23,906 nucleotides of DNA from a virus. Location: IMG/VR virus record IMGVR_UViG_3300033144_003201, positions 1 to 23,906 of that record; one strand, 5' to 3'. The notes below the pieces were generated by a model, which searched no databases, was not told where the DNA came from, and was given only the letters and a program-made list of their open reading frames with translations. Made by a program: the position numbers and the translations under genes. This document shows positions 2,114 to 20,249 of this stretch, piece by piece (the stretch's first letter is position 1; the number at the start of each line of letters is the position of its first letter).

Positions 2114-5100
2114 TTACCCACTGCGCTCTGGATAGCGCCTTGCACGTCCTCATTAGTCTCTATTACTTCCGCTATGGCCTGACCTAATTCATGACCGTCC
2201 AGGTATATATGACTTGTGACAGTCACTTGATTATTCACATATATTTCCTGTTGCTCTTGTGCTTGTTTTTCTTGTGCCTCTTGGACCCAAGGCATTGCCT
2301 GAGTATCAGAGATAACCCCGGCAACCGAGGGATCATACCCGCCATAGGCTTTCATGTAGTCTAAGTACCCAGACTTGGCAAAGCTGGCAAATTCACTGAA
2401 TGCGTCCGGGTCAAAGTATGCTGATTCGTATAATTTTTGGTATTCGGCTTGTATGCCTTCCAAGCTTACTGCCGGGGCGTATTGACCCACGGTTAATTCC
2501 CGCAAGAAGGATTCGACTGGGCCTAAGATTGCGGCTGTATTTTCACCAAGAGCGTCAACAGTAAGGCCAAGGGAATCGGTAACGGTATTCAGTGCATCTG
2601 TAACTTTATCAAAAACAGGTTCCATCTCTGCCAGGTATGCTGTTAGGTCCTCGTTAGCAGGAAATGCCTTCACGATATCAGATATTTCCAGCCCCCCCGA
2701 TGTGGCTAATTCAGACCATTGATTTCCTGTATATGTTCTCCCTCCGTAACTTATAGCAGCAGAGGGATTAGTCAAATTAGCCACTCGATTTTGTGCTGTA
2801 TAATATTCTTCAAGAGTGGGGTATTTGCCCCCAGTACTTCTAGTCCACCCCCATAATGGATATGTCGCATCTTTCACTTTATCCCCCAGGGTCACTATAT
2901 CCTGAGCTTTTTTAAGCTCATCAGTTTTGTATTGCTCAAATCCTAATGCTAATACTTTATCAGGTTGTGTATATTCGCTAACTTTAGAAAAAGCAGGTTC
3001 AAAAAGATTCATGAGGGGTTTTAAAGCATCAGTCGCCATAATTTTAGTAAATGCCTCAACCACACTGCCACCCATATCAGATTTGAAAGCATTTATAAAT
3101 GTTTGATATTCTTGGCTTTGGTATGCTTCTAAAAATCCGTTACTAATAGATGACCCCATGCTAGATGAAAAATCCTGCATAAAATCTTCTAACATGCTAA
3201 ACCATGCTTCATTTGCTATGGTCAATAATTGAGACTGCTGTTCACTTTGTTGGGCGTAAATTATTTCTTTAAAGTTTGGCCCATCATCACCACCAAATAA
3301 CCCACCCAATAAACCCCCGGCAATCATACCAATAGGCCCACCGAATGAGCCTAAAGCTGCTATACTACTCCCAAGTGCCATGCCGCCCATACTACCAACA
3401 GCACCACCAACATCACCCATACCATAACCCATGGCTCCAGCGCCGACGTAAGGCATCATAGCTGACCCCCTCACAGCACCTTCCGGTAATGGCCCCATAA
3501 AATTCGGTGAATAAAGATTGCCCATCATACCGCCTACCATCTGATTAACCATAGGCGATATAAATTTCTTTTTAGCGATATCTGCCGCAGTATCAGCAAA
3601 AATCCTGCTAATGGATTTGCCTAATTTTTTCCATGCTTCTTCCTGCCCCATAAGCAAATCTGCAAAAGCATCACCAAGAGTATCCGTGATCCCATCAGCT
3701 ACACTATGCCAAATTTCCATTGTTTCTTTGGCAAGCGTCTCTTGTGCTTCCAGATACTCACTGTTGTATTTAGCCAGCATCATGTCTTTGTAATTGGTGA
3801 GGTGGGCGAAATCCTGTTGCTCATGCATATATGTTTCTTTGGTTGTCTCATACCACCGCATGAGTTGATCAATTTTAAATTCTGTGGTGCCAAGGACTTG
3901 TTTTCTAATTTTTTTCTGAACTTCTTCTTCTAAGGCAACGAATTGCTCGGAGGGGGCTCTAGGATGTTTAGGTGTAGCGGCCTCTATTATTTGTGTTTGT
4001 GCGCCGAATGATTCACTGCCATACATTAAGGCCCCTAGCAAATTCGGCAAGATATTTGTCCTTGGATCTCTGTTTATGTTATAAGCAATATCATCTTGAA
4101 GGCTGATAAAGCTTTGCTTGATTGCTTCAAGCTTTTTAATAAACTTATTAGTGACTTTTTCATTTTCTTCAGGGCTACCAATAATCTTTTCTAATAAAGT
4201 CTTTGGTGTCGTGGGGGTTAAAGGTGCCAATGGCCCATGTTCAAAAGCATCACTTAAATAATCAGAATAATTTTTTCTTTCTTTTACTAACCTTTCCCAT
4301 TCCTTATTGTGTTCAGCCGCCTCTTTCAACCAATCTACAAATCTGTCAACCGTTTTAGCCACGGGGAATTTGTCCATTATCTCATCAAAAACAGGCCCAA
4401 TTTTTTTTACGGTAGGGATAAAAACCTCATCGACAAATGATACAACCATTTCAAATGCTGTAATCATCCCAATAGCACTGTCAATTACTCCTGTTGCTGT
4501 CTTTTTAGCCCACTCGTCCATCCTGCCTGATTTTTTAAATTCATCAAAAGCGGCATTAATACCTTTTATATTGGTGATTAACGCCTCTAATACGCCAGTC
4601 TTGACCATAATAGCGTTAAAAAAATCACCCATACGCTCTTTAGCTTCTTTCATCTGATCAGCGTATGCCTTCCAAGCTCCATAGCCCTCACGAATAGCCA
4701 TTACCTGATCTTGAACATGGTGTTCGACCTGCTCCAGAACCCCCTCAAACCCCTTCAACGCAAATATGGTTTTATCAATAGGAATAGCAAGACGCCGAAG
4801 CTCTCCTGTCATACCAAGAGATGCTTTACCGAAGATCCTGGCCGACTGCTCCATCGTCCTGCCGGTAAAGGCCGATAAATCCACCATGGCCTTAGTAACT
4901 CTTGGAACTAACTCTTCTGGGATACGGGTAAATGATAAAAGTGCTTTTTGGCCTTGGATAATAAATTCATCCCCAATGCCGGTTAATTGCTGGATGCTTT
5001 TGGCCATTTTTAAGGTGTCATCATAAAAGGATTGGGAGAACCTGTTGCTTGTCACCATAGCCTGTTTTAATTGCTGCTCGGCTATGGATTGAGCGCCTGA

Positions 5101-5359
5101 GAGTTTCATCCACCCGGCAATCATCCCCTCAAAGTTCATAGCCACACGGTAAGCTTTCCCTAAAAGATAAACTTTGGCGGCCAAATTAACGTAGGCGGAT
5201 TGGAGCCCTCCCATGGATTTAGTGTGCTTTTCCCACGCCTTCTCCATCTTTTGAACGGTAGAGGTTACGTCCTTATACAGTTTGCCTTTTTCTTTCAAAT
5301 ACTTAACGGTATCTAAATCTAGCTCAACAAAATATCGTTCCGACTGGCTTGCCTGCCAT
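2110..5359 (-). CDS. Tail tape measure protein, frameshifted near its start
   Basis: The long frame (to 5298) encodes over 1,060 residues typical of a tape measure: helical coiled-coil-prone N-terminal third, a Gly/Ala-rich hydrophobic segment in the middle (stretches such as GGAVGSMGGMALGSSIAALG and GMIAGGLLGGLFGG), and a long helical C-terminal part. It sets tail length during assembly and is expelled into the host envelope at infection. The best start is an ATG at 5359 with GGAGG 10 bases upstream, giving MAGKPVGTIF; one extra base in a T4 run (5329-5332) then shifts the frame, after which VELDLDTVKYLKEKGKLYKD continues. Removing that base gives 1,082 codons. As written, translation would have to restart at a weak TTG (5298) or similar. 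At the usual 1.5 angstrom per residue the tail would be about 160 nm. Confidence 0.88.
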
Positions 5360-6041
5360 TATCGGGGTCCCTCCTTTTGCAAGGCGGGTATTAAACCATT
5401 GCGACAGAAAGCCTTAAGTTTCTGCCGTAACTTTATAGGTCTAAATAATTCTTTCCACCAAACAATCAAAGTTTCATACCCGTATTGAGCAAAAAAATCT
5501 TTACGGGTTTTTTCTTCTTGTGGTTTGTGCCAAAATTTACCAAATAATTCAATAACTTGTAGCATATCCTTGTTTATAAAATCTGGAACTTTTCCATCTA
5601 TCACAACTTTACCGTCACCAACAAATTCCCATCCATCAGGCGATACTTCATTAATATATCCCATTAATTTTATTTCGCTTTTATTAGTTAGATCAATGAT
5701 TGGGCTTTTAAACCTTTTTCTTTTGATCCCTGGTTTGCTCCATGCTTGGCTTATTTTTTCGGAGACACGTTTTTTAAACTCAGGGTCCGCCCATTTTTTC
5801 TTCATCGCTTCAGTGCCAAAATGACCACACCCACAACTTTTTGTGCCGCCCGCCCTCAATGATTTACTATTTGCAATTTTTGTATTGCCACAGTCACATT
5901 TACATAGCCATAAAGTATTATGTTGTCTGTCTCTCCCTTTTATTTCTATAGTTTTAACTTTCCAAACCTTTGGCCGGTTAAATCAATTATTTGTGACGTC
6001 TTGCGTTTTGTATTTTTTTTTGCTAATGTAGGTTTAGCCAT
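5359..6041 (-). pseudogene. Vsr-like homing endonuclease with zinc-finger N-terminus, frameshifted
   Basis: The ATG at 6041 (AGGAG 10 bases upstream) starts MAKPTLAKKNTKRKTSQ, followed by IIDLTGQRFGKLK, the usual opening of phage homing nucleases. A stop then appears, but the -1 frame continues KTIEIKGRDRQHNTLWLCKCDCGN, SLRAGGTKSCGC (a Cys-rich DNA-binding module), a basic repeat EAMKKKWADPEFKKRVSEK, and a C-terminal nuclease: VPDFI, QVIELFGKFWH, YGYETLIVWWKEL. That last set of motifs fits the Vsr/EDxHD fold used by some homing endonucleases. The shift lies at an A4 run (5952-5955); one more A would restore 227 residues. The stop codon overlaps the tape measure ATG as TAATG. An in-frame 36-codon leader (6149-6042) also exists but the AGGAG site favours 6041. 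Either a true lesion or a -1 shift on AAA. Confidence 0.75.
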
Positions 6042-6160
6042 GACATCATATCTCCTATATATGAAGTTATTGGTTAGAGGGGGAAGCAAGCCCAATACTT
6101 GTTTCTCTCTCGTTAAGTTATACCCCATATCTTGTTGTAATTCAAGCATTTTCTTTAAAT

Positions 6161-6616: not shown

Positions 6617-7439
6617 TATTTTTGCTTCCCTAAGTCATTTGACTCCTTGTCTTTCTGGATTTGCTGGCATATATTAAATAGCTTTTGCACTTTTCTAAGG
6701 CATTCCTCTTGGTTCCTAATCTTACAAACACCCATAGCCTCTATAACAGCAAGTATATTGATATCAATAACGTCGCCCATCCCGGCTGTTATAACCTGAC
6801 GCCTACAAATCATAAATATCTTTACGGCGTCCTGGTTCTCTTCAAGTACATTCACCCGGCATTTATAACAAGGAGGATCTTGAGGTGGTCGCTTATCAGC
6901 CCATACAATCTTACATTCTGGACAGGTGGGGGCATATTCATCAAGCCACGCTGCCCATTCCTCTAGTTTTTTTCCGTTTTTTCTATCCTTTCCCTTTTTT
7001 CACCTTCTAAAACTTTCAGGCATTTATTGACAAAGCGATCAAACGGTGGCGACTTCTTCAGCTTTAATTTGTTTTCCTTTGTGCATTCTAAGACTTCGCC
7101 TTTAACTTTAAAGAACTCAAGGCCTGTGATGATGTAATCCCATGTATCATCAGCCTCTTTTTTTATCTCCTTCGGGGTTAAATCTTTGAAATACTCAATT
7201 CTTTCCATACTTCTTGTCTTTGTATTAAGAACGTGCTCAACGGCTTTTTTTCGTGCAAGATACCTCTCTTGTAAAAACGGATATGGCGACCTGACCCTGA
7301 CCCTCGCCTTGGGCGCAGGCTCCTCAAAAATCCATTCCTCTGTTTCTTTATCAAGATATGAATTTTGATAAGGGAACCATTCGCCCTCTTCTATACTTTC
7401 TATGTCAACCTCTACGCCTTCATAAATAACTTCCGACAT
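6616..7439 (-). CDS. Tail assembly chaperone, -1 frameshifted long form (GT-like)
   Basis: A -1 slip on A AAA AAC (6972-6966) moves ribosomes from the TAG-terminated frame into one that continues KKLEEWAAWLDEYAPTCPEC and onward for about 117 codons to a TAA at 6618-6616. The extension holds a zinc-ribbon-like pair, CPEC and CYKC, 18 residues apart, then a helical domain (ENQDAVKIFMICRRQVITAG). In lambda the T extension recruits tail tube subunits to the G-coated tape measure; this extension should do the same. An independent start inside the extension is unlikely, because the first usable ATG would come after the zinc ribbon. The stop overlaps the next gene's ATG (TAATG). This is the one frame change in the window that is almost surely programmed. 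Confidence 0.8.
6963..7439 (-). CDS. Tail assembly chaperone, short form (G-like)
   Basis: This 158-residue acidic-then-basic, helix-rich protein lies between the tail tube and tape measure genes, exactly where lambda G and its analogues sit. It has no catalytic motif. It ends ...KRERIEKTEKN with the stop TAG directly after the slippery A AAA AAC, so most ribosomes would make this short form. The chaperone coats the tape measure and recruits tail tube subunits during assembly; that is family knowledge, applied here through position and the frameshift architecture. Confidence 0.8.
   Translation of the reverse strand: MSEVIYEGVEVDIESIEEGEWFPYQNSYLDKETEEWIFEEPAPKARVRVRSPYPFLQERYLARKKAVEHVLNTKTRSMERIEYFKDLTPKEIKKEADDTWDYIITGLEFFKVKGEVLECTKENKLKLKKSPPFDRFVNKCLKVLEGEKRERIEKTEKN
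6966..6972 (-). promoter_or_regulatory. -1 ribosomal frameshift slippery site
   Basis: On the minus strand the zero-frame codons are GAA AAA AAC TAG, which contain the canonical heptamer A AAA AAC with the stop immediately after it. The -1 frame is open for over 115 codons beyond the stop and encodes a zinc-ribbon domain. Confidence 0.85.
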
Positions 7440-7478
7440 ATAAATTTCTACCTTTCTGCTTTTATCAAAGCATGTTAA

Positions 7479-7919
7479 TTAAGTTACTCTTTCTAATGCT
7501 GCTCCGGACACTTTCCCGTTAAAAGAAACCGTCCCGAGGCTATTTTTTTCCAGTGTGAACGCATTAAAGTTTGAAAGTTTAATATCCCCACCACTCGCAA
7601 CACGCCAAAAAGAATATGTTGTCCCTGCCGCACCGGCACCATATTGGTCATAAAAATATAGATTTGTGAGTCCTGAAGTAGTTGTTTTAAGAGCGTTTAA
7701 AGCTGCCTGCCCATTAGTATCATCAGGGTCATAATTACCGGAAAACGTTATTTCCCCAGCATCATCAATGCCAGCACGTGTCCATGTCTTAACCGTATCG
7801 CCAAAAGATGTATCTTCTAAAAGACCGGCGGTATAACCGCTTGCCGTTATTGTGCCGATATTTGCCACTGTATTTGCACCATACATTACACGAACTTTTC
7901 TTCCGCCAATACTGGCCAT
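7479..7919 (-). CDS. Major tail tube protein
   Basis: The 146-residue beta-rich protein begins MASIGGRKVRVMYGANTVAN and contains EITFSGNYDPDD and FNGKVSG, patterns common to siphovirus tail tube subunits (strand - acidic loop - strand, with a conserved 'f.G.v' near the end). It has a strong GGGAGGAAA ribosome site, as expected for an abundant structural protein, and lies directly upstream of the tail assembly chaperone. It would polymerise into hexameric rings around the tape measure. The order tube - chaperone - tape measure is the main support. Confidence 0.8.
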   Translation of the reverse strand: MASIGGRKVRVMYGANTVANIGTITASGYTAGLLEDTSFGDTVKTWTRAGIDDAGEITFSGNYDPDDTNGQAALNALKTTTSGLTNLYFYDQYGAGAAGTTYSFWRVASGGDIKLSNFNAFTLEKNSLGTVSFNGKVSGAALERVT

Positions 7920-7922
7920 AAT

Positions 7923-9422
7923 TTATTTCCTCCCTTCTTGGTCACTGGGGCATTCCCCAGGATTGAAAATATTCCCGTACGAACTAAACACCGTACTATC
8001 AATGCGTTTAGCGTTAGGGAATTGTTGTTTTATCCAATTTAGCCGATCATAAAAATCTTCTCCAGGATGCCAAGGGAATGGTCTTGTGCAGTGGTGATCC
8101 GCAAAAGCATCAATTATCCACGCACTCCCTCCCATCTCCTGCGCCTGTAATACTGCCAAAGTGCCATACAAATCAAAGCCGTCAAGCCGCGTATTAAACC
8201 GGAACTGGCTTTTTAAATTTACCAGGATGCAACACTCATCAAAACAAGATGCTTCAACAGGAAACGTATGTGATGAGCTAAAAATTAATGGCATCCTATG
8301 GTCCTGCAACCTTCCGCAAATATCTCCTTTCATGTCTTTCCCGATAATCCCGGCCACAACCCAACCATCGGGGAGTCGTTCAATCTGTGCCTTAACTGTC
8401 TCAGCCCACCCGCGCCGATAAAACATATCCTGGTGGGTAAGTACGCCTATATCAGCCCCGGCGTTTTGCATAATATCAAGCAGCTTATTTAGCCCTAATG
8501 TCGCGGAGGCAGGGTCTTTTACAAAATACATCTTCCCGTCAATTTCTGATTGCCGCAGAACCATCTCAAGCCGAATAGGATCATTAGCCAATACGCCAAA
8601 CCCCATTTTTATTTTGGGCTCAGGTCTGATATATTGCTTAACTATTTTTGATGCTTCGTGGTTGTCTTTAACGTAGTTATATAGATATGCCGAATGGTCC
8701 CGATTATATTTAGCCAATTCGCCCTCAACCCATTCTTTTGTAACTGTATTTTTAAATTGTCTGCCGGAAAAATTGCACCTGGCTATTGCCTTGATGTTTC
8801 CAGGAGACACATACCCATCACCGTAATTGCCTATATATGGCCTATTATCGGCCACCAAAACAGGCCTGCCATAAGACATGGCTTCCAGTGCCCCACGCCC
8901 AAGAGTGATACAAAGATCAGCCCACTTGATCTGTTCTTGTATAGGGATATTTAAATCACTATACCGTAAATTATATTTTTCTCCCAAGAAAGCAAAAGGG
9001 TCAAACCCGACCGCCTCCCGGCGAATGACAAGGATGTTCTTTAATTCTTTATTTGGATAGGAATGGTTAGGGATAACTATCGGCTGGCCTATAATTTCAC
9101 TGGGATATTTACGGTCAAGTTGAGCTTCCATAACCTCATCGCTAACTGAAATATAACGATCTGCCCCAGGGGAAAAGTATTCATCTGGAATAAGCCCATG
9201 GGAGATACAAATCTTCCTGGCAGGGTTATCTTTTATTTCTTTAAGTAAGTGACTACAGATAATAAGATCAAATTTTTCATTTATACATTGCCGTGGTGAA
9301 TTAGTCGTTGTTACATCATGCCCGAGGGTTGTAAGCGTATCGATAACACAGCGCATAAAACGCCCGGAACCTCCCTCTTTAGATGCTCCTGATATATATT
9401 TAGCTGTTACTAAGATTTTCAA
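7923..9422 (-). CDS. Two-domain glycosyltransferase inserted in the tail module
   Basis: The 499-residue product joins two transferase-like halves. Residues 1 to about 265 resemble a GT-B enzyme: MKILVTAKYI, a Gly-rich loop GASKEGGSGRFM, and TLGRGALEAMSYGRPVLVAD (about 173-192), the GT4-type EAM.xGxPVL donor site. Residues about 272-470 resemble a GT2-like domain: FGVLANDPIR, then GVLTHQDMFYRRGW, where HQD would take the DxD place. No signal or membrane segment is visible, so it is probably cytoplasmic. The start is TTG with AAAGGA 8 bases upstream; a terminator lies just before it and the tail tube gene starts 4 bases after its end. Candidate targets are a virion protein or the host's surface sugar; the sequence does not decide between them. 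Confidence 0.75.
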   Translation of the reverse strand: MKILVTAKYISGASKEGGSGRFMRCVIDTLTTLGHDVTTTNSPRQCINEKFDLIICSHLLKEIKDNPARKICISHGLIPDEYFSPGADRYISVSDEVMEAQLDRKYPSEIIGQPIVIPNHSYPNKELKNILVIRREAVGFDPFAFLGEKYNLRYSDLNIPIQEQIKWADLCITLGRGALEAMSYGRPVLVADNRPYIGNYGDGYVSPGNIKAIARCNFSGRQFKNTVTKEWVEGELAKYNRDHSAYLYNYVKDNHEASKIVKQYIRPEPKIKMGFGVLANDPIRLEMVLRQSEIDGKMYFVKDPASATLGLNKLLDIMQNAGADIGVLTHQDMFYRRGWAETVKAQIERLPDGWVVAGIIGKDMKGDICGRLQDHRMPLIFSSSHTFPVEASCFDECCILVNLKSQFRFNTRLDGFDLYGTLAVLQAQEMGGSAWIIDAFADHHCTRPFPWHPGEDFYDRLNWIKQQFPNAKRIDSTVFSSYGNIFNPGECPSDQEGRK

Positions 9423-14761: not shown

Positions 14762-15647
14762 TTTCATAACCTCCTGTTACGTTTGAAATAAGGTTTTCTA
14801 AACTGTCTGCGATCTCAGCATCCCGCTGATTATCCGGTTGGTTGTCTGGATCAGGGGCAACGCCATCCCAGCCTCTCGCAAGTATGGCCTTGGCTTTTGC
14901 CTGGGGGAACCTTGCATCCCGTAAGGCTCTCTCTGCGTCCCTGATGGTTAATTCATCATTACTGTTTAATATTTTTATATGGTCCGGCATCCCGGCAAAT
15001 ATAGGGATATCCAGCCTTGCTTTTACCTTGCCGCCCTCTTTTATTATGTTGTCAATAAATCCTTTTTCTTTGGCTTCCTTGGCAGTCATCCACGTTCCAT
15101 CCCGTTTATCTTTCCCGTCCATGATGGCCCTTATTTCCTTCTTCCCGATCGAGGCTTTGTCCGAATAAATATCAAGGATTTGAGCACCAAATTGCTTTAA
15201 TACGTCCCTCATTTCTGCCATCATAAATTCATTACCGATAGCAATAGACCAGGGGTTATGAATCATATAGGTAGAGGTTTTATAGGCGTTTACTTCAGAT
15301 CCGCCAAGGGCAATAAAGCTTGCGCTGCTGGCTGCAAGGGAATCGATTCTGACTGTGACCTTTGCGTCATGCCGCTTCATGGCCTGATAAATTGCAATGG
15401 AGTCCATTACATCTCCACCGGGACAATTTATCCCGAACAACAAAGGTCTGCCTTTATATTCATTCATTGTATTAACGAGGATATTGGCATCACACCAAGG
15501 CCAGCCCACAGCATCGTAGATAAGGATTTCAACTTCTTCATTAGATGCATCAGCGTTCACCTTGTACCACTCAGGCTTATCAAGGGGCTTGTCATATAAA
15601 GCACTCATTATTTTTGCATTTGTATTATTTCTGTATGATAATTTCAT
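14754..15647 (-). CDS. ClpP-like prohead protease (S14)
   Basis: A 297-residue protein with the ClpP fold signatures: INCPGGDVMDSIAIYQAM (about 73-90), the active Ser in DSLAASSASFIALGG (Ser about 107), the His in YMIHNPW (about 130), and DGTWMTAKEAKEKGFIDNII, where the Asp near 183 would complete the triad. It would cut the N-terminal scaffold domain of the capsid protein during maturation. AAGGAG lies 7 bases before the ATG at 15647, which overlaps the portal gene's 3' end by 23 bases. The C-terminal about 70 residues (from DDELTIRDAERALRDA onward) hold a short charged region often seen after the protease domain in phages. Confidence 0.88.
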   Translation of the reverse strand: MKLSYRNNTNAKIMSALYDKPLDKPEWYKVNADASNEEVEILIYDAVGWPWCDANILVNTMNEYKGRPLLFGINCPGGDVMDSIAIYQAMKRHDAKVTVRIDSLAASSASFIALGGSEVNAYKTSTYMIHNPWSIAIGNEFMMAEMRDVLKQFGAQILDIYSDKASIGKKEIRAIMDGKDKRDGTWMTAKEAKEKGFIDNIIKEGGKVKARLDIPIFAGMPDHIKILNSNDELTIRDAERALRDARFPQAKAKAILARGWDGVAPDPDNQPDNQRDAEIADSLENLISNVTGGYENA

Positions 15648-16881
15648 TATTTACTCCTTTATCTTGCTTCTTGGCTTCCTTGACCGTTGATGTTCTGGTC
15701 TGGTATTTATCCCCGCCCGGATCTGTTCTTTTATTCATATCAAGGAGTGCCCGACATTCATTAGGGTTGAATATTTCTTTGTCTATCCCTATTGCAAACC
15801 CTTCCATCTGTTCTTTAAAAGACCCACGGAGCAACCCCCGGACTTCAAATTTTGCATAATATTTTTTGCGCTCTTGTGGCGAGAGAAGATCCCTTCTAAT
15901 AGACTTTTCATAATTAACGCAATCAGGAACAATGCTGTGCTGCACAAAATTAATAGCGAACTGCTCTGCCGAGGCGTTTGTTTCAACCCTCTCCTGTGAT
16001 TGAATCAGCATATGGGGAACTCTAAAAAGCCCACAAATTTGAGATTCATTCATTTTTGATTGTTCAAGAAATTGGGCGTCTACCAGCTTAATTGTGGGGA
16101 ACACGATATCCATAGCTTCATCAATCAACATGAACTCATGCGATTTGCCAAGGCCCTCATATTTTTCCTTGAAGTTTTTCTTCATCCTGGCGTGTGCAGG
16201 GGCACTCATCGAAAGGGGGTGTTTAAGCACTGCGCTAGGGTGTAACCCCTTGCTAAAATACCTCCCGATAAATTGATTACTCGCCAAACCAATACCTATT
16301 GTCTCTCTTGCGTTTTCAATGGGATTTATGCCGATAATGCCGTTGAGGGTTAACCCCCGCAAATGCATGATTTTATTTCCTGACACAGGCTCAATGTCCC
16401 CGCCCTTCATTTTCAAGTGATAGGTAAGGGAAAAATCATCGTTTTGCTCAACTTTAGTAACAACGCCATCCTTAAGGGGGATCAGTTCTTGTATTGGTCG
16501 CCCTTCAAGCCCCATCTTGTAAACGTAAAAATTCCCTCTGAGGCAAATATACGCTTCCGCCATAGCCCAAAAATCAAAAGACGTCATCCAGGAGTTTGGC
16601 TGGCTATGGAGCTTTTCATACAAATAAAAATCTGTGGCCTGTGTTCTTTTATCCCCCTGCTTTTGCATGATATGGCAGGGGAGTTGCCCGATAGTAAAAG
16701 CCCTGACTCGGACGCAATTCTGAACAGTAATAAGCCTCATTGCCGATTCGGGACTGACCGCTACGCCTGAAGATGTTGGGCTGACACCCCCGTAATATGC
16801 GCCTCCGGGGGTATACCACCTGTCATCTACAGGCCCCCATGATGCGGCTTTAGGTCTTGCCATACGGGAGACAATGCCCAT
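15625..16881 (-). CDS. Portal protein, HK97 type
   Basis: The 418-residue protein has the standard HK97 portal pattern: an early AMRLITVQNCVRVRAFTIGQ, then LPCHIMQ and LLHSQPN-like YEKLHSQPNSWMTSFDFWAM, GNFYVYKM, PLKDGVVTKVEQNDD, and the conserved clip/stem region IMHLRGLTLNGIIGINPIEN, followed by RVPHMLIQSQERVETNASAE. It forms the dodecameric ring at one capsid vertex through which DNA enters and leaves and to which terminase binds. The ATG overlaps the stop of the small membrane protein gene (TAATG). Length is typical of the family. Confidence 0.9.
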   Translation of the reverse strand: MGIVSRMARPKAASWGPVDDRWYTPGGAYYGGVSPTSSGVAVSPESAMRLITVQNCVRVRAFTIGQLPCHIMQKQGDKRTQATDFYLYEKLHSQPNSWMTSFDFWAMAEAYICLRGNFYVYKMGLEGRPIQELIPLKDGVVTKVEQNDDFSLTYHLKMKGGDIEPVSGNKIMHLRGLTLNGIIGINPIENARETIGIGLASNQFIGRYFSKGLHPSAVLKHPLSMSAPAHARMKKNFKEKYEGLGKSHEFMLIDEAMDIVFPTIKLVDAQFLEQSKMNESQICGLFRVPHMLIQSQERVETNASAEQFAINFVQHSIVPDCVNYEKSIRRDLLSPQERKKYYAKFEVRGLLRGSFKEQMEGFAIGIDKEIFNPNECRALLDMNKRTDPGGDKYQTRTSTVKEAKKQDKGVNNEIIIQK

Positions 16882-17093
16882 TACTGTTTACCCCTCATGC
16901 TGTAGCCTGTAGCCATCAACAATGGGCCGCAAACCATAAATGCCAGCCATTGACCTTTCCACAAGTAAAGGCCGTACCAGGACATAAACAGACCGCCGAA
17001 ATAAAGAACGTCCCTGATATCAACAGAGAAAAAGCTTTTAACTCGTCGAACGGTTTTTTGTATAAAGGGTTTAATTTTCTGGCAGTATTTCAT
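16881..17093 (-). CDS. Small membrane protein upstream of portal
   Basis: A 70-residue protein with a charged N-terminal third (MKYCQKIKPFIQKTVRRVKS), then two hydrophobic segments, VLYFGGLFMSWYGLYLW and WLAFMVCGPLLMATGYSM, separated by KGQ, so a likely two-pass inner membrane hairpin. Similar short 'DIRD..fFGGL...GY.L......A....G' proteins occur just before portal genes in other prophages. No ribosome site is visible, and a -10-like TAAAAT lies 6 bases before the ATG, so it may be leaderless. Its stop overlaps the portal ATG. Function unknown. Confidence 0.65.
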   Translation of the reverse strand: MKYCQKIKPFIQKTVRRVKSFFSVDIRDVLYFGGLFMSWYGLYLWKGQWLAFMVCGPLLMATGYSMRGKQ

Positions 17094-17099
17094 GCAGGA

Positions 17100-17129
17100 A
17101 TTTTAACAAGGGATGTAAAGCATTGTCTA
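17100..17129 (-). promoter_or_regulatory. Likely promoter of the portal-capsid operon
   Basis: On the minus strand TAGACA (17129-17124) and TAAAAT (17105-17100) are 18 bases apart, each one base off consensus. The first gene's ATG (17093) lies 6 bases past the -10. The -35 and most of the spacer lie in the 104-bp repeat; in the other repeat copy the -10 is not preserved. Confidence 0.45.
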
Positions 17130-17206
17130 ATAAGGAACTAGACAGGATATAACGGTTGGACGTTTTTTTGTTGTGTTAGGGTTTAATGGGTGGTAAAATG
17201 ATGAAT
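17103..17206 (+). repeat. 104-bp direct repeat, copy 1
   Basis: Matches 17928-18031 over 104 bases with two mismatches (at 17174 and 17185). The unit holds the last codons of a gene (NKGCKALSNKELDRI and its stop) followed by a T7 run and an extended -10 promoter. In this copy the gene end has no gene body before it. Confidence 0.95.
17171..17199 (+). promoter_or_regulatory. Extended -10 promoter, repeat copy 1
   Basis: TGGTAAAAT gives an extended -10 (TAAAAT at 17194-17199), with TTGTGT (17171-17176) at 17 bases as a poor -35. It would drive the three plus-strand genes from 17226. Confidence 0.5.
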
Positions 17207-17225
17207 AAAAAGGGGTGGATACACC

Positions 17226-17519
17226 ATGTGTTTAGATATTGACCCAAACAAATACATAAACGCTGCACTAATAGAAGCATTAGAATTCACCACATTATCT
17301 GATTTGCATGATGATTTATTAAAGTGTCACCCTACACTTAAGACAGAAAAAGAAGCTAAAAAGAAATACCCCAAAATAACAATGGACCTTATTATGGAAA
17401 TTATAGATACAGCCGATGAATGCCCTGTCTGCTATAAAAGATTTCTTAAGTTTGGCGTAAAACATAGCAAATCATGTAAACTTGGGCCGTTATTACCGGA
17501 CGCAAATATATTTAAATAA
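17226..17519 (+). CDS. Small zinc-finger-like protein, moron cassette gene 1
   Basis: A 97-residue protein with AAGGGGTGG 7 bases before the ATG. The first two thirds are helical and acidic-basic mixed (MCLDIDPNKYINAALIEALE). The C-terminal third has ECPVCYKRFLKFGVKHSKSC, a Cys-Cys ... His ... Cys set that could bind zinc. It is the first of three co-directional genes between the two 104-bp repeats and opposes the phage's late genes, as morons do. No family recognised; a DNA- or protein-binding role is possible but unproven. Confidence 0.6.
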   Translation: MCLDIDPNKYINAALIEALEFTTLSDLHDDLLKCHPTLKTEKEAKKKYPKITMDLIMEIIDTADECPVCYKRFLKFGVKHSKSCKLGPLLPDANIFK

Positions 17520-17531
17520 CGGGAAGGTATC

Positions 17532-17810
17532 ATGAAAACTCCTAAGACGTTGCTCGGGTTTCCCATAAAAGAGGTCAGCGGTCCTTCATTAAAAGACGAC
17601 TGTATAAAATTTGGTGGGCCATTGATGGCGGGGCCAAGGACCAAAGAAGTTAAATTTATTGGCGGACCAGCGAATGACTGGGTAATGATTCTGTTTGAAG
17701 AAACCACCAAACTTGTTTTACGTGCTGTTGACACCCCTCTTCTCACGGAAGACGTTGAATACGAAATAAAGCAAGCCGAAAACGGGGAATGGGTTGGGGG
17801 AATAAAGTGA
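17532..17810 (+). CDS. Hypothetical protein, moron cassette gene 2
   Basis: A 92-residue soluble-looking protein (MKTPKTLLGFPIKEVSGPSL) with a Gly-Pro-rich first half (FGGPLMAGPRTKEVKFIGGP) and beta-prone segments ANDWVMILFEETTKLVLRAV, closing with YEIKQAENGEWVGGIK. GGGAAGG lies 5 bases before the ATG, 12 bases after the previous gene. Its stop overlaps the next gene's GTG start (GTGA), so the two are coupled. I do not recognise it. Confidence 0.6.
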   Translation: MKTPKTLLGFPIKEVSGPSLKDDCIKFGGPLMAGPRTKEVKFIGGPANDWVMILFEETTKLVLRAVDTPLLTEDVEYEIKQAENGEWVGGIK

Positions 17811-17977
17811 CAAGAAACGATTATGATAATATCGCAAAATGTATCCGTCGAAGAGGCACTAAGGGGCAGCGAAAAGCTTTAAAAGGGGCCATAACGGTAA
17901 ATGGGAAGAAGCAAAAACGCCACAAGCTTAACAAGGGATGTAAAGCATTGTCTAATAAGGAACTAGACAGGATATAA
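17807..17977 (+). CDS. Small basic protein, moron cassette gene 3, chimeric 3' half
   Basis: From the GTG at 17807 (coupled to the previous stop as GTGA) 56 residues are read: a helix-prone start (TRNDYDNIAKCIRRRG) and a very basic remainder. Its middle (AITVNGKKQKRHKL) lies in a 42-bp repeat that a neighbouring gene reads in another frame, and its end lies in the 104-bp repeat. The gene may therefore be a recombination product rather than an old gene. An upstream ATG (17789) exists but lies in the previous gene with no better ribosome site. Confidence 0.4.
   Translation: MTRNDYDNIAKCIRRRGTKGQRKALKGAITVNGKKQKRHKLNKGCKALSNKELDRI
17887..17928 (+). repeat. 42-bp direct repeat, copy 1
   Basis: Identical over 42 bases to 18156-18197. 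It abuts copy 2 of the 104-bp repeat with a shared base at 17928. Confidence 0.95.
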
Positions 17978-18031
17978 CGGTTGGACGTTTTTTTGTTGCG
18001 TTAGGGTTTGATGGGTGGTAAAATGATGAAT
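17928..18031 (+). repeat. 104-bp direct repeat, copy 2
   Basis: Second copy, 825 bases from the first. Recombination between them would remove 825 bp carrying the three small genes at 17226-17977 and leave one repeat and one promoter. Confidence 0.95.
17996..18024 (+). promoter_or_regulatory. Extended -10 promoter, repeat copy 2
   Basis: The same TGGTAAAAT element (TAAAAT at 18019-18024), with TTGCGT at the -35 place. The next ATG (18033) is 8 bases past the -10, so the message would have almost no leader. Confidence 0.5.
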
Positions 18032-18032
18032 C

Positions 18033-18218
18033 ATGAAAACTTTATATATGATTTATGCTATTTTATTTAAAGGGGTATCGGTTCTTAGAACTGCTGATGA
18101 TTTCGGAAAAAATATTATGTGGAACGCTCATGATGAACCTCAGGATGGATATGGAGGCCATAACGGTAAATGGGAAGAAGCAAAAACGCCACAAGCTGCT
18201 GTTTGGAAATTACGCTAA
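18033..18218 (+). CDS. Small hypothetical protein after repeat copy 2
   Basis: A 61-residue protein: a hydrophobic start (MKTLYMIYAILFKGVSVLRT), then FGKNIMWNAHDEPQDGYGGH and NGKWEEAKTPQAAVWKLR. The second half reads naturally for a soluble protein, so the 42-bp repeat is probably in its native frame here (GHNGKWEEAKTPQA). No ribosome site is seen and the ATG lies 8 bases past a -10, pointing to a leaderless start. The 3' end overlaps the opposing helix-turn-helix gene by 9 bases. Not recognised. Confidence 0.5.
   Translation: MKTLYMIYAILFKGVSVLRTADDFGKNIMWNAHDEPQDGYGGHNGKWEEAKTPQAAVWKLR
18156..18197 (+). repeat. 42-bp direct repeat, copy 2
   Basis: Second identical copy, 269 bases from the first, in the coding frame of the 61-residue protein gene. 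Confidence 0.95.
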
Positions 18219-18479
18219 CGAATCAAGCCTGCTCTTAAGCCTGAAAGAGAGAATGCTTTTCCGTGGTATTCTCATTGTAGCTTCGGTATATTTTTCTGTG
18301 CCGGGAAAGAGCCCATGACTAATCCATAGGTAAATAGTGGACCTCGCCACACCAAAATATGCCGATACTTCATCAGGGGTAAATGTATCTTTTTTTGGCA
18401 AATACGAATCGTCAACTACTGGGGTGGCCCCTGGTATTTCTATATTATTTTTATTGGCAACACTCTTTTTTTTAGCCAT
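18210..18479 (-). CDS. Helix-turn-helix DNA-binding protein (excisionase / MerR-like fold)
   Basis: An 89-residue protein with a basic, probably disordered N-terminus and a C-terminal HTH_17-type domain: TFTPDEVSAYFGVARSTIYLWISHGLFPG, then MRIPRKSILSFRLKSRL, the turn-strand-helix order of small winged-helix regulators and excisionases. AAAGGAG lies 10 bases before the ATG, 15 bases after the large terminase stop, so it is in the packaging operon. Possible roles are local regulation or a packaging accessory (winged-helix small terminase-like recognition); neither is shown. Its 3' end overlaps the opposing moron gene. Confidence 0.7.
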   Translation of the reverse strand: MAKKKSVANKNNIEIPGATPVVDDSYLPKKDTFTPDEVSAYFGVARSTIYLWISHGLFPGTEKYTEATMRIPRKSILSFRLKSRLDSLA

Positions 18480-18494
18480 TAGTTACTTTCTCCT

Positions 18495-20249
18495 TTAAAA
18501 AACTATTACCTCTGCATCTTCTTCTTCATAGGCTGATATTGTAGGCCCATGCCGTAACATAGCCCGACCAATACCCATAATTAAAGCCATGACGCCATCA
18601 ATTTTATTGTCTTCACAAGTTTTTGTCGGGTAATAAAATTTTACAGGTCCGCCCGACCGTCCTGGTTTCTTAACTACATTGCTCATCATCCATGCCAAAA
18701 CCGGGTCACCGTTATGATGAAATTTCTTATCATAAACAAGTCCCTCTAACTGCTTCATGGGTTCACTAATAAGCGCGGGGCCCTGGTTGATTTCAATACA
18801 CCTGTCTTCCCCTAACCATTGCATAAGATTATTTACTAGATAAGTCGCTTCGTGGGGGTCATACGCAAGCTCAAGGATGGTGTTTGTTTTATTAATTTTA
18901 CATATATCATCTTCAATGAACCTGTAATCAGTCATTGCACCGGGGGTTTTAATAATACGCACCTCCTTCACCCATTGCGGATACTGCCTGATCTTGGAGC
19001 GAATAATTGTTTCTTCGGGAAGATAATAACGGCCAAATGCGTACAGATTATTATCTCTATAAAACACAAGCACTAAAGCAGCTATATCAATTTTACTTGC
19101 AAGATCGAATGCTAAATAACAAGGCTCCCCGGCGAAATCCTCAAGACGTAAATTTTTATCAGCGCAAGCATTCCAAGCGTCTGCCGAGATCCATTTGGTG
19201 ATTGAATCAGTCCAAATATTGAAGTTTAATCTTTTGACAATATTTTCTTTCGATGGCATCCCTATTGCTTCTTTGACCTGCTTTCTGTAATAATCTTTAT
19301 ACGGTTCCCCCAAATATTCAATATTAGGGGATGATTTTACCCATACTTTTTCATCCCGCCAATCATCACAGTCGGGGCACCCGTCTTGAGGTATAGTTTT
19401 CCCCTCTGCCTCACACCGGGGACACACATCAAGTCCCGAAATAAGACCAAACCACTCATCGTTTTCGAGAATATTTTCTAAAATTTTCGTGGTATATTCA
19501 TGATGTTGATAACAGATTGATTGCCTGTTTACCCCACTATTGGTTATTTCAAATATAAGCGGTTGCCGTCTTGATTTGGTCCCTGCTGTCATTTTGTCCA
19601 CAACCAGTTCACTAGGATGCTCATGGATTTCATCTATGCACGCTATGTGTGGCTTTTTCCCATCTAACCCACTGTGCTCAGAGGAGATGGCCCTAAAAAA
19701 ACTATTATCTAATATATTTGCAATATTATGTTTGCTAACTTCAAGCATTTCCATCAATGCTTCAGATGCTTTAGCATAAAGACGGGCATCCCTGAACAAA
19801 ATACCCGCTTGCTCCTTTGTAGTCGCACACGAATATACTTCACTCCCTGGTTCGTCGTCAAAAGTTATGCCATACAAACCTATGCCTGCGGCTATAGGGG
19901 ACTTGCCCCCGCCTTTTGCGCTTTCCACATACGATGTCTTGAACCGCCGATATCCGTTAGGCTCCTTCTTCCACCCAAACACCGACCCCACTAAAAACTT
20001 TTGCCAGGGGGTTAATAAAAACGGGTGGCCGGCAAACGCTCCTTCATAAAAAACAAGAAACTCTTCAAAAAACCTAATGATATGGTTGGCCGCTCCCTCA
20101 TCAAAATATAGCCCCCTCTTACGGCCTTCTTTTAGATCGTCGAGATGGCGTTTCCCTGCAAGGCGGGTCCATTTATTAGCAAGGATATTACCCCTGGTTA
20201 TATCAAGGGCATATTGTGTGGTGGGGTGTATTATTTTATTTTTGGCCAT
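18495..20249 (-). CDS. Terminase large subunit (Terminase_1 family)
   Basis: The 584-residue protein has the ATPase motor: Walker A ESAKGGGKS (about 109-117), Walker B HIACIDEIHE with Asp 206 and Glu 207, and a following motif III-like FEITNSG. The nuclease half starts with LAFDLASKIDIAALVL (Asp about 382), and later acidic residues include EDD near 447 and IDGVMAL near the C-terminus. A CPRC ... CPDC quartet (about 276-294) between the two halves could bind zinc. It cuts and pumps phage DNA into the prohead. The ATG has only a weak GGATAAA site and a terminator hairpin stands upstream, so expression may be limited by design or damage. Confidence 0.92.
   Translation of the reverse strand: MAKNKIIHPTTQYALDITRGNILANKWTRLAGKRHLDDLKEGRKRGLYFDEGAANHIIRFFEEFLVFYEGAFAGHPFLLTPWQKFLVGSVFGWKKEPNGYRRFKTSYVESAKGGGKSPIAAGIGLYGITFDDEPGSEVYSCATTKEQAGILFRDARLYAKASEALMEMLEVSKHNIANILDNSFFRAISSEHSGLDGKKPHIACIDEIHEHPSELVVDKMTAGTKSRRQPLIFEITNSGVNRQSICYQHHEYTTKILENILENDEWFGLISGLDVCPRCEAEGKTIPQDGCPDCDDWRDEKVWVKSSPNIEYLGEPYKDYYRKQVKEAIGMPSKENIVKRLNFNIWTDSITKWISADAWNACADKNLRLEDFAGEPCYLAFDLASKIDIAALVLVFYRDNNLYAFGRYYLPEETIIRSKIRQYPQWVKEVRIIKTPGAMTDYRFIEDDICKINKTNTILELAYDPHEATYLVNNLMQWLGEDRCIEINQGPALISEPMKQLEGLVYDKKFHHNGDPVLAWMMSNVVKKPGRSGGPVKFYYPTKTCEDNKIDGVMALIMGIGRAMLRHGPTISAYEEEDAEVIVF

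Follow-up and report, generated by a model that had tools for sequence, protein, structure and literature searches.

In the late region of an uncultured phage we identify a block of four small genes, seated in a slot that varies among relatives, whose layout we read, at a probability of about 0.6, as the outcome of a tandem duplication of a unit running from a 104-nt repeat (R1) to a 42-bp repeat (D42), followed by complementary losses in the two copies. The sequence analysed (the window) is a whole IMG/VR virus record of 23,906 bp. Its late genes lie on the minus strand in the order TerS, TerL, HTH, the block in question, small membrane protein, portal and further head and tail genes (names other than TerL, HTH and portal were assigned by eye), and the late module is HK97-type siphophage-like. 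The HTH and membrane-protein genes are about 1.1 kb apart, and this interval holds four plus-strand genes, g1–g4 (Table 1). Searches of genome contigs with TerL returned only distant loci in proteobacterial genomes (≤46% identity), and with the portal returned no match. Among the tail genes, two adjacent minus-strand ORFs between a tape-measure-like gene and the next tail gene (5359–6149) resemble, by eye, the two pieces of a broken homing-endonuclease-type gene, neither of which was matched in Pfam, and a 499-aa protein encoded on the minus strand at 7923–9422 is by eye glycosyltransferase-like, with no Pfam match at E 0.01.

Table 1 Features of the late-gene slot and its surroundings, in window coordinates.
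Feature	Position	Strand	Remarks
Portal gene	15625–16881	−	
Small membrane-protein gene	16881–17093	−	upstream of portal; conserved in relatives
Leftward promoter-like site TAGACA-18-TAAAAT	17100–17129	−	TG one base before second hexamer
R1, repeat copy 1	17103–17206		nearly the whole intergenic divergent promoter region, membrane-protein gene to g1
Inverted repeat TGTCTA-N9-TAGACA	17124–17144		perfect; overlaps leftward −35; candidate operator
Extended −10 TGGTAAAAT	17191–17199	+	upstream of g1; consensus match only, weak −35
g1	17226–17519	+	97 aa; mostly helical low-confidence model; no relatives
g2	17532–17810	+	92 aa; no relatives
g3	17807–17977	+	56 aa; GTG start overlaps g2 stop
D42 copy 1	17887–17928		in g3, read in a different frame; abuts R1′ (1-nt overlap)
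R1′, repeat copy 2	17928–18031		2 mismatches; carries g3 end and rightward −10
Duplicate inverted repeat	17949–17969		in R1′
Duplicate extended −10 TGGTAAAAT	18016–18024	+	in R1′, upstream of g4
g4	18033–18218	+	61 aa; same strand as g1–g3; end overlaps HTH gene end
D42 copy 2	18156–18197		inside g4; probably the native copy
HTH_17/excisionase-like DNA-binding protein gene	18210–18479	−	right-hand neighbour of slot
Terminator-like site	18417–18436		downstream of g4, within HTH gene; chance expectation for the region 1.9
TerL gene	18495–20249	−	

Comparison of loci supports the HTH-to-portal interval as a moron slot that is variable among relatives. In four of them (L004, L005, L009 and L013) the HTH gene adjoins the membrane/portal genes with no cassette between them, and the flanking order of HTH, membrane-protein and portal genes in the window is that of the relatives. 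The block is thus inserted between genes that adjoin each other elsewhere, and this synteny, together with the orientation of g1, g2 and g3 against the late operon, bears out a preliminary description of these three genes as morons opposing the late genes. Other relatives fill the slot differently: L012 has three opposing genes, one encoding a ribbon-helix-helix protein, L027 has different content again, and in L002 an opposing module upstream of the membrane-protein gene encodes Csf1, a Cas11-Csf2 fusion, Csf3 and a CysH-like protein, the gene set reported for type IV-B systems (PMC8175902), and by these genes the module is a type IV-B-like CRISPR-Cas locus. The module (L002:647–5576, minus strand) opposes a portal gene that is 73% identical, its CysH-like protein is a PAPS reductase, and it also encodes a ribbon-helix-helix protein and two genes without assigned function; low-complexity, GCC-rich repeats of 5-bp periodicity lie beside genes without assigned function in this slot (L002:3970–4693), and the presence of a Cas11-Cas7 fusion among phage late genes may deserve separate study. 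Two relatives (L015 and L062) carry extra genes between TerL and HTH. In L015 a 32-bp direct repeat (97%; 3567–3598 and 3812–3843), covering the TerL end, the ribosome-binding site and the next start codon, encloses a 56-aa gene, and this junction duplication is a small parallel to the case described here. In two relatives TerL itself is broken up by intein-like stretches that keep the reading frame and end in HN or CN (L067:3132–3554 and 4245–5300; L066:about 6955–7917), with no Rfam intron match.

A repeat search and alignment confirmed the two 104-nt direct repeats of the preliminary description, R1 and R1′, which start 825 bp apart with 721 bp between them and differ at two positions (17174 T/17999 C and 17185 A/18010 G). 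Their similarity is far beyond chance, the longest exact run being 71 nt, whereas 40 Markov-shuffled versions of the window gave 13–16 nt. Each had been said to hold a gene end and an extended −10; the −10 does occur in both, but the gene end occurs in R1′ only, as the letters that end g3 there are intergenic in R1. Lying upstream of the membrane-protein/portal operon, R1 probably represents its native divergent promoter region, since a leftward promoter-like site lies at its left end (10/12 plus TG; P 0.007 against shuffles; −10 ending 6 nt before the membrane-protein ATG at 17093) and in the equivalent gap a late-strand promoter-like site at P ≤ 0.023 is present in 7 of 13 relatives. R1′ keeps the dyad and the rightward −10, but the leftward −10 is disrupted at the left edge of the copy, reading TAAGCT in place of TAAAAT. 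R1 and R1′ are probably not the ends of a cassette, but a native promoter region and its copy. Over the whole region, on the other hand, promoter-like sites show no excess, with five found against 4.6 expected in shuffles. The RNA fold of R1 was unremarkable on the plus strand (z −0.4) and stronger on the minus strand (z −3.1), the latter probably owing to the dyad, and an Rfam search gave no match.

A second repeat, D42, which the preliminary description did not contain, is exact over 42 bp, with its copies spaced 269 bp apart. The layout of the region is X-R1-M1-D42-R1′-M2-D42-Y, in which M1 takes in g1 and g2 together with the beginning of g3, and M2 consists of codons 1–41 of g4. The R1 and D42 pairs occur in the same order but at different spacings (825 and 269 bp), and D42 abuts R1′ exactly, at a joint where about one base is shared (CACAAGCT/TAACAAGG, compared with CACAAGCT/GCTG and AATTT/TAACAAGG). 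The earlier suggestion of a recent duplication gains from the count of differences, 2/104 in R1 and 0/42 in D42. No repeat comparable to either was found elsewhere in the record, other two-copy families being 77–82% alike over 30–33 nt. In the g4 frame D42 has a codon score of 0.29 bits/codon, like the late genes, whilst in the g3 frame it scores −0.08 (the R1′ part of g3 scores −0.06), and as D42 thus scores as coding in the g4 frame and not in that of g3, these short stretches suggest that the g3 copy is probably secondary and the g4 copy native. These scores led us to abandon an initial view that placed the native D42 in g3. Immediately past R1′, 10 nt (12 if the AT before them is counted) match the start of g2, CATGAAAACT (P 0.0018 for that end), as would be left by loss of g1 from the second copy; the match is no more than suggestive, this having been one of several ends examined and start-codon contexts being alike between genes.

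The genes themselves read as coding: g1, g2 and the first part of g3 have an in-frame codon bias like that of the late genes, with a GC content of 33% in g1 and 45% in g2 (window 42.5%). A plausible ribosome-binding site, AGGGGTGGA, precedes g1, which starts about 20 nt past the expected transcription start. The g4 ATG lies 2 nt past the end of R1′ with no Shine-Dalgarno sequence at the normal distance, so that translation of g4 may be leaderless or begin from a later start. About half of the 56 residues of g3, at its C-terminus, are read through the copied D42 and R1. No relatives of g1–g4 were found in IMG/VR, INPHARED phage records or family libraries, none that convinced in the fetched loci, and none of the region in a nucleotide search of plasmid records; PHROGs, Pfam, NCBIfam and PADLOC gave no significant match, and hence no known anti-phage or counter-defence family. 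Apparent matches to g4 in L003 and L006 fell within head-tail adaptor-like genes and were set aside as chance. The structure models were too poor for a fold search (pLDDT 63 for g1 and 46 for g2). From position and orientation, g1–g4 are most likely morons that would be expressed independently of the late genes.

We favour a tandem duplication of the R1-to-D42 unit because it gives both repeats, their order and their abutment at once. An accessory block on the opposite strand, in the slot flanked by the HTH gene and the membrane-protein/portal operon, would have been read from R1. In a recent ancestor an illegitimate joint would then have connected the D42 of g4, at its end, with the beginning of R1, producing a tandem duplication of the unit with D42/R1′ as the novel joint. 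As M1 and M2 differ, complementary losses are needed under this history, and we assume two that followed on: the first copy would have lost most of g4, keeping g1, g2 and the start of g3, and the second would have lost g1–g3, which would leave the second promoter fused almost directly to g4. As an outcome g3 would have gained a new C-terminus, and g4 a promoter of its own together with a copy of the candidate operator. Neither the pre-duplication arrangement nor single-copy relatives were found among the relatives searched. Illegitimate joining that yields a tandem duplication, later partly deleted, is a known process, which the locus resembles in its novel joint with so little shared sequence and in its near-identical ends; it departs from the usual tandem duplication in that the copies have lost complementary parts and only the ends are still recognisable.

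A three-gene cassette bounded by the repeats, as first proposed, is not the unit, because the duplication more likely ran from R1 to D42 and four genes are present. The proposal that recombination would delete the cassette cleanly and keep one promoter stands on paper as regards the clean loss: recombination between R1 and R1′ would delete 825 bp, taking out g1–g3, which may be dispensable, but the predicted product would retain g4 and both promoters. Recombination between the D42 copies would delete 269 bp and destroy g4.

We consider it unlikely that a foreign three-gene cassette was inserted beside the promoter region, with the latter duplicated as R1 and R1′ at insertion so that the repeats bound the cassette. 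R1 and R1′ do flank g1–g3, several relatives lack the cassette at the same place and the L015 gene is enclosed by its junction duplication, but such an insertion leaves unexplained why an internal stretch of g4 recurs directly against R1′ as an exact 42-bp copy. Neither a transposase or integrase domain in g1–g4 nor terminal inverted repeats were found, so the block lacks the marks of a transposable element. It is also rather improbable that a 145-bp patch between g3 and g4 was written in one repair or replication event whose template switched twice, D42 being taken from 269 bp downstream and then R1 from 825 bp upstream; the patch is compact (17887–18031) and near-identical to both sources, yet two long-range switches with very little homology would be required, and the match of the g4 start to the g2 start would be left unexplained. 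An assembly artefact or strain chimera, in which variants of one locus were joined through short repeats during metagenome assembly, appears quite improbable: the window is an IMG/VR virus record, and an exact 42-bp repeat can confuse short-k assembly graphs, but the two fixed differences between the R1 copies, the flanking gene order shared with relatives, and the intact ORFs with their coding-like codon bias all argue against it.

PeSL elements of T4-type phages (Arbiol 2010; Comeau 2014, as cited in PMC4503421) reportedly carry a promoter and a stem-loop between intergenic sites. The region is like them in having repeated short elements, with promoter-like sites and a potential stem-loop beside accessory genes, that could recombine, and unlike them in that R1 has two copies only, sits in an HK97-type siphophage-like late module and has a dyad that overlaps a promoter rather than forming a terminator. 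It is quite improbable that the duplicated divergent promoter/operator acts as a recombination module by which this phage group swaps or drops blocks in the HTH-portal slot; were it so, PeSL-like shuffling would extend outside T4-type phages and create protein ends such as that of g3. That R1 is itself a mobile regulatory element of the PeSL kind, shuffling modules by homologous recombination, is very improbable, as the promoter-like sites and perfect 6-bp dyad duplicated beside accessory genes are set against just two copies in the 23.9-kb record, a 33-mer of R1 with no exact match in other IMG/VR contigs, and a dyad that has no occurrence in the window outside the two repeats and no exact match in the other loci compared (L001 being the window itself).

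As a moron locus, the region has counterparts among known phages. In the late region of SPP1, a moron segment with ORFs 8–10 is described as bracketed between transcriptional signals (PMC6316719), and as there, small genes without assigned function break the conserved packaging, portal and capsid order; unlike in SPP1, g1–g4 oppose the late operon and the regulatory region itself is duplicated. In cyanophage S-PM2 a dispensable ORFan block of 9.5 kb is spontaneously lost in phage stocks (PMC4503421), whereas here 825 bp with obvious homology for deletion are concerned, and loss is a prediction from the sequence. This is ordinary moron biology and phage evolution with an unusually legible duplication history. 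The locus would offer a snapshot of accessory-locus remodelling, in which a promoter duplication, gene loss and a new protein C-terminus belong to one recent episode, and the slot, which in one relative holds a type IV-B-like CRISPR-Cas module, is a place to seek host-interaction genes.
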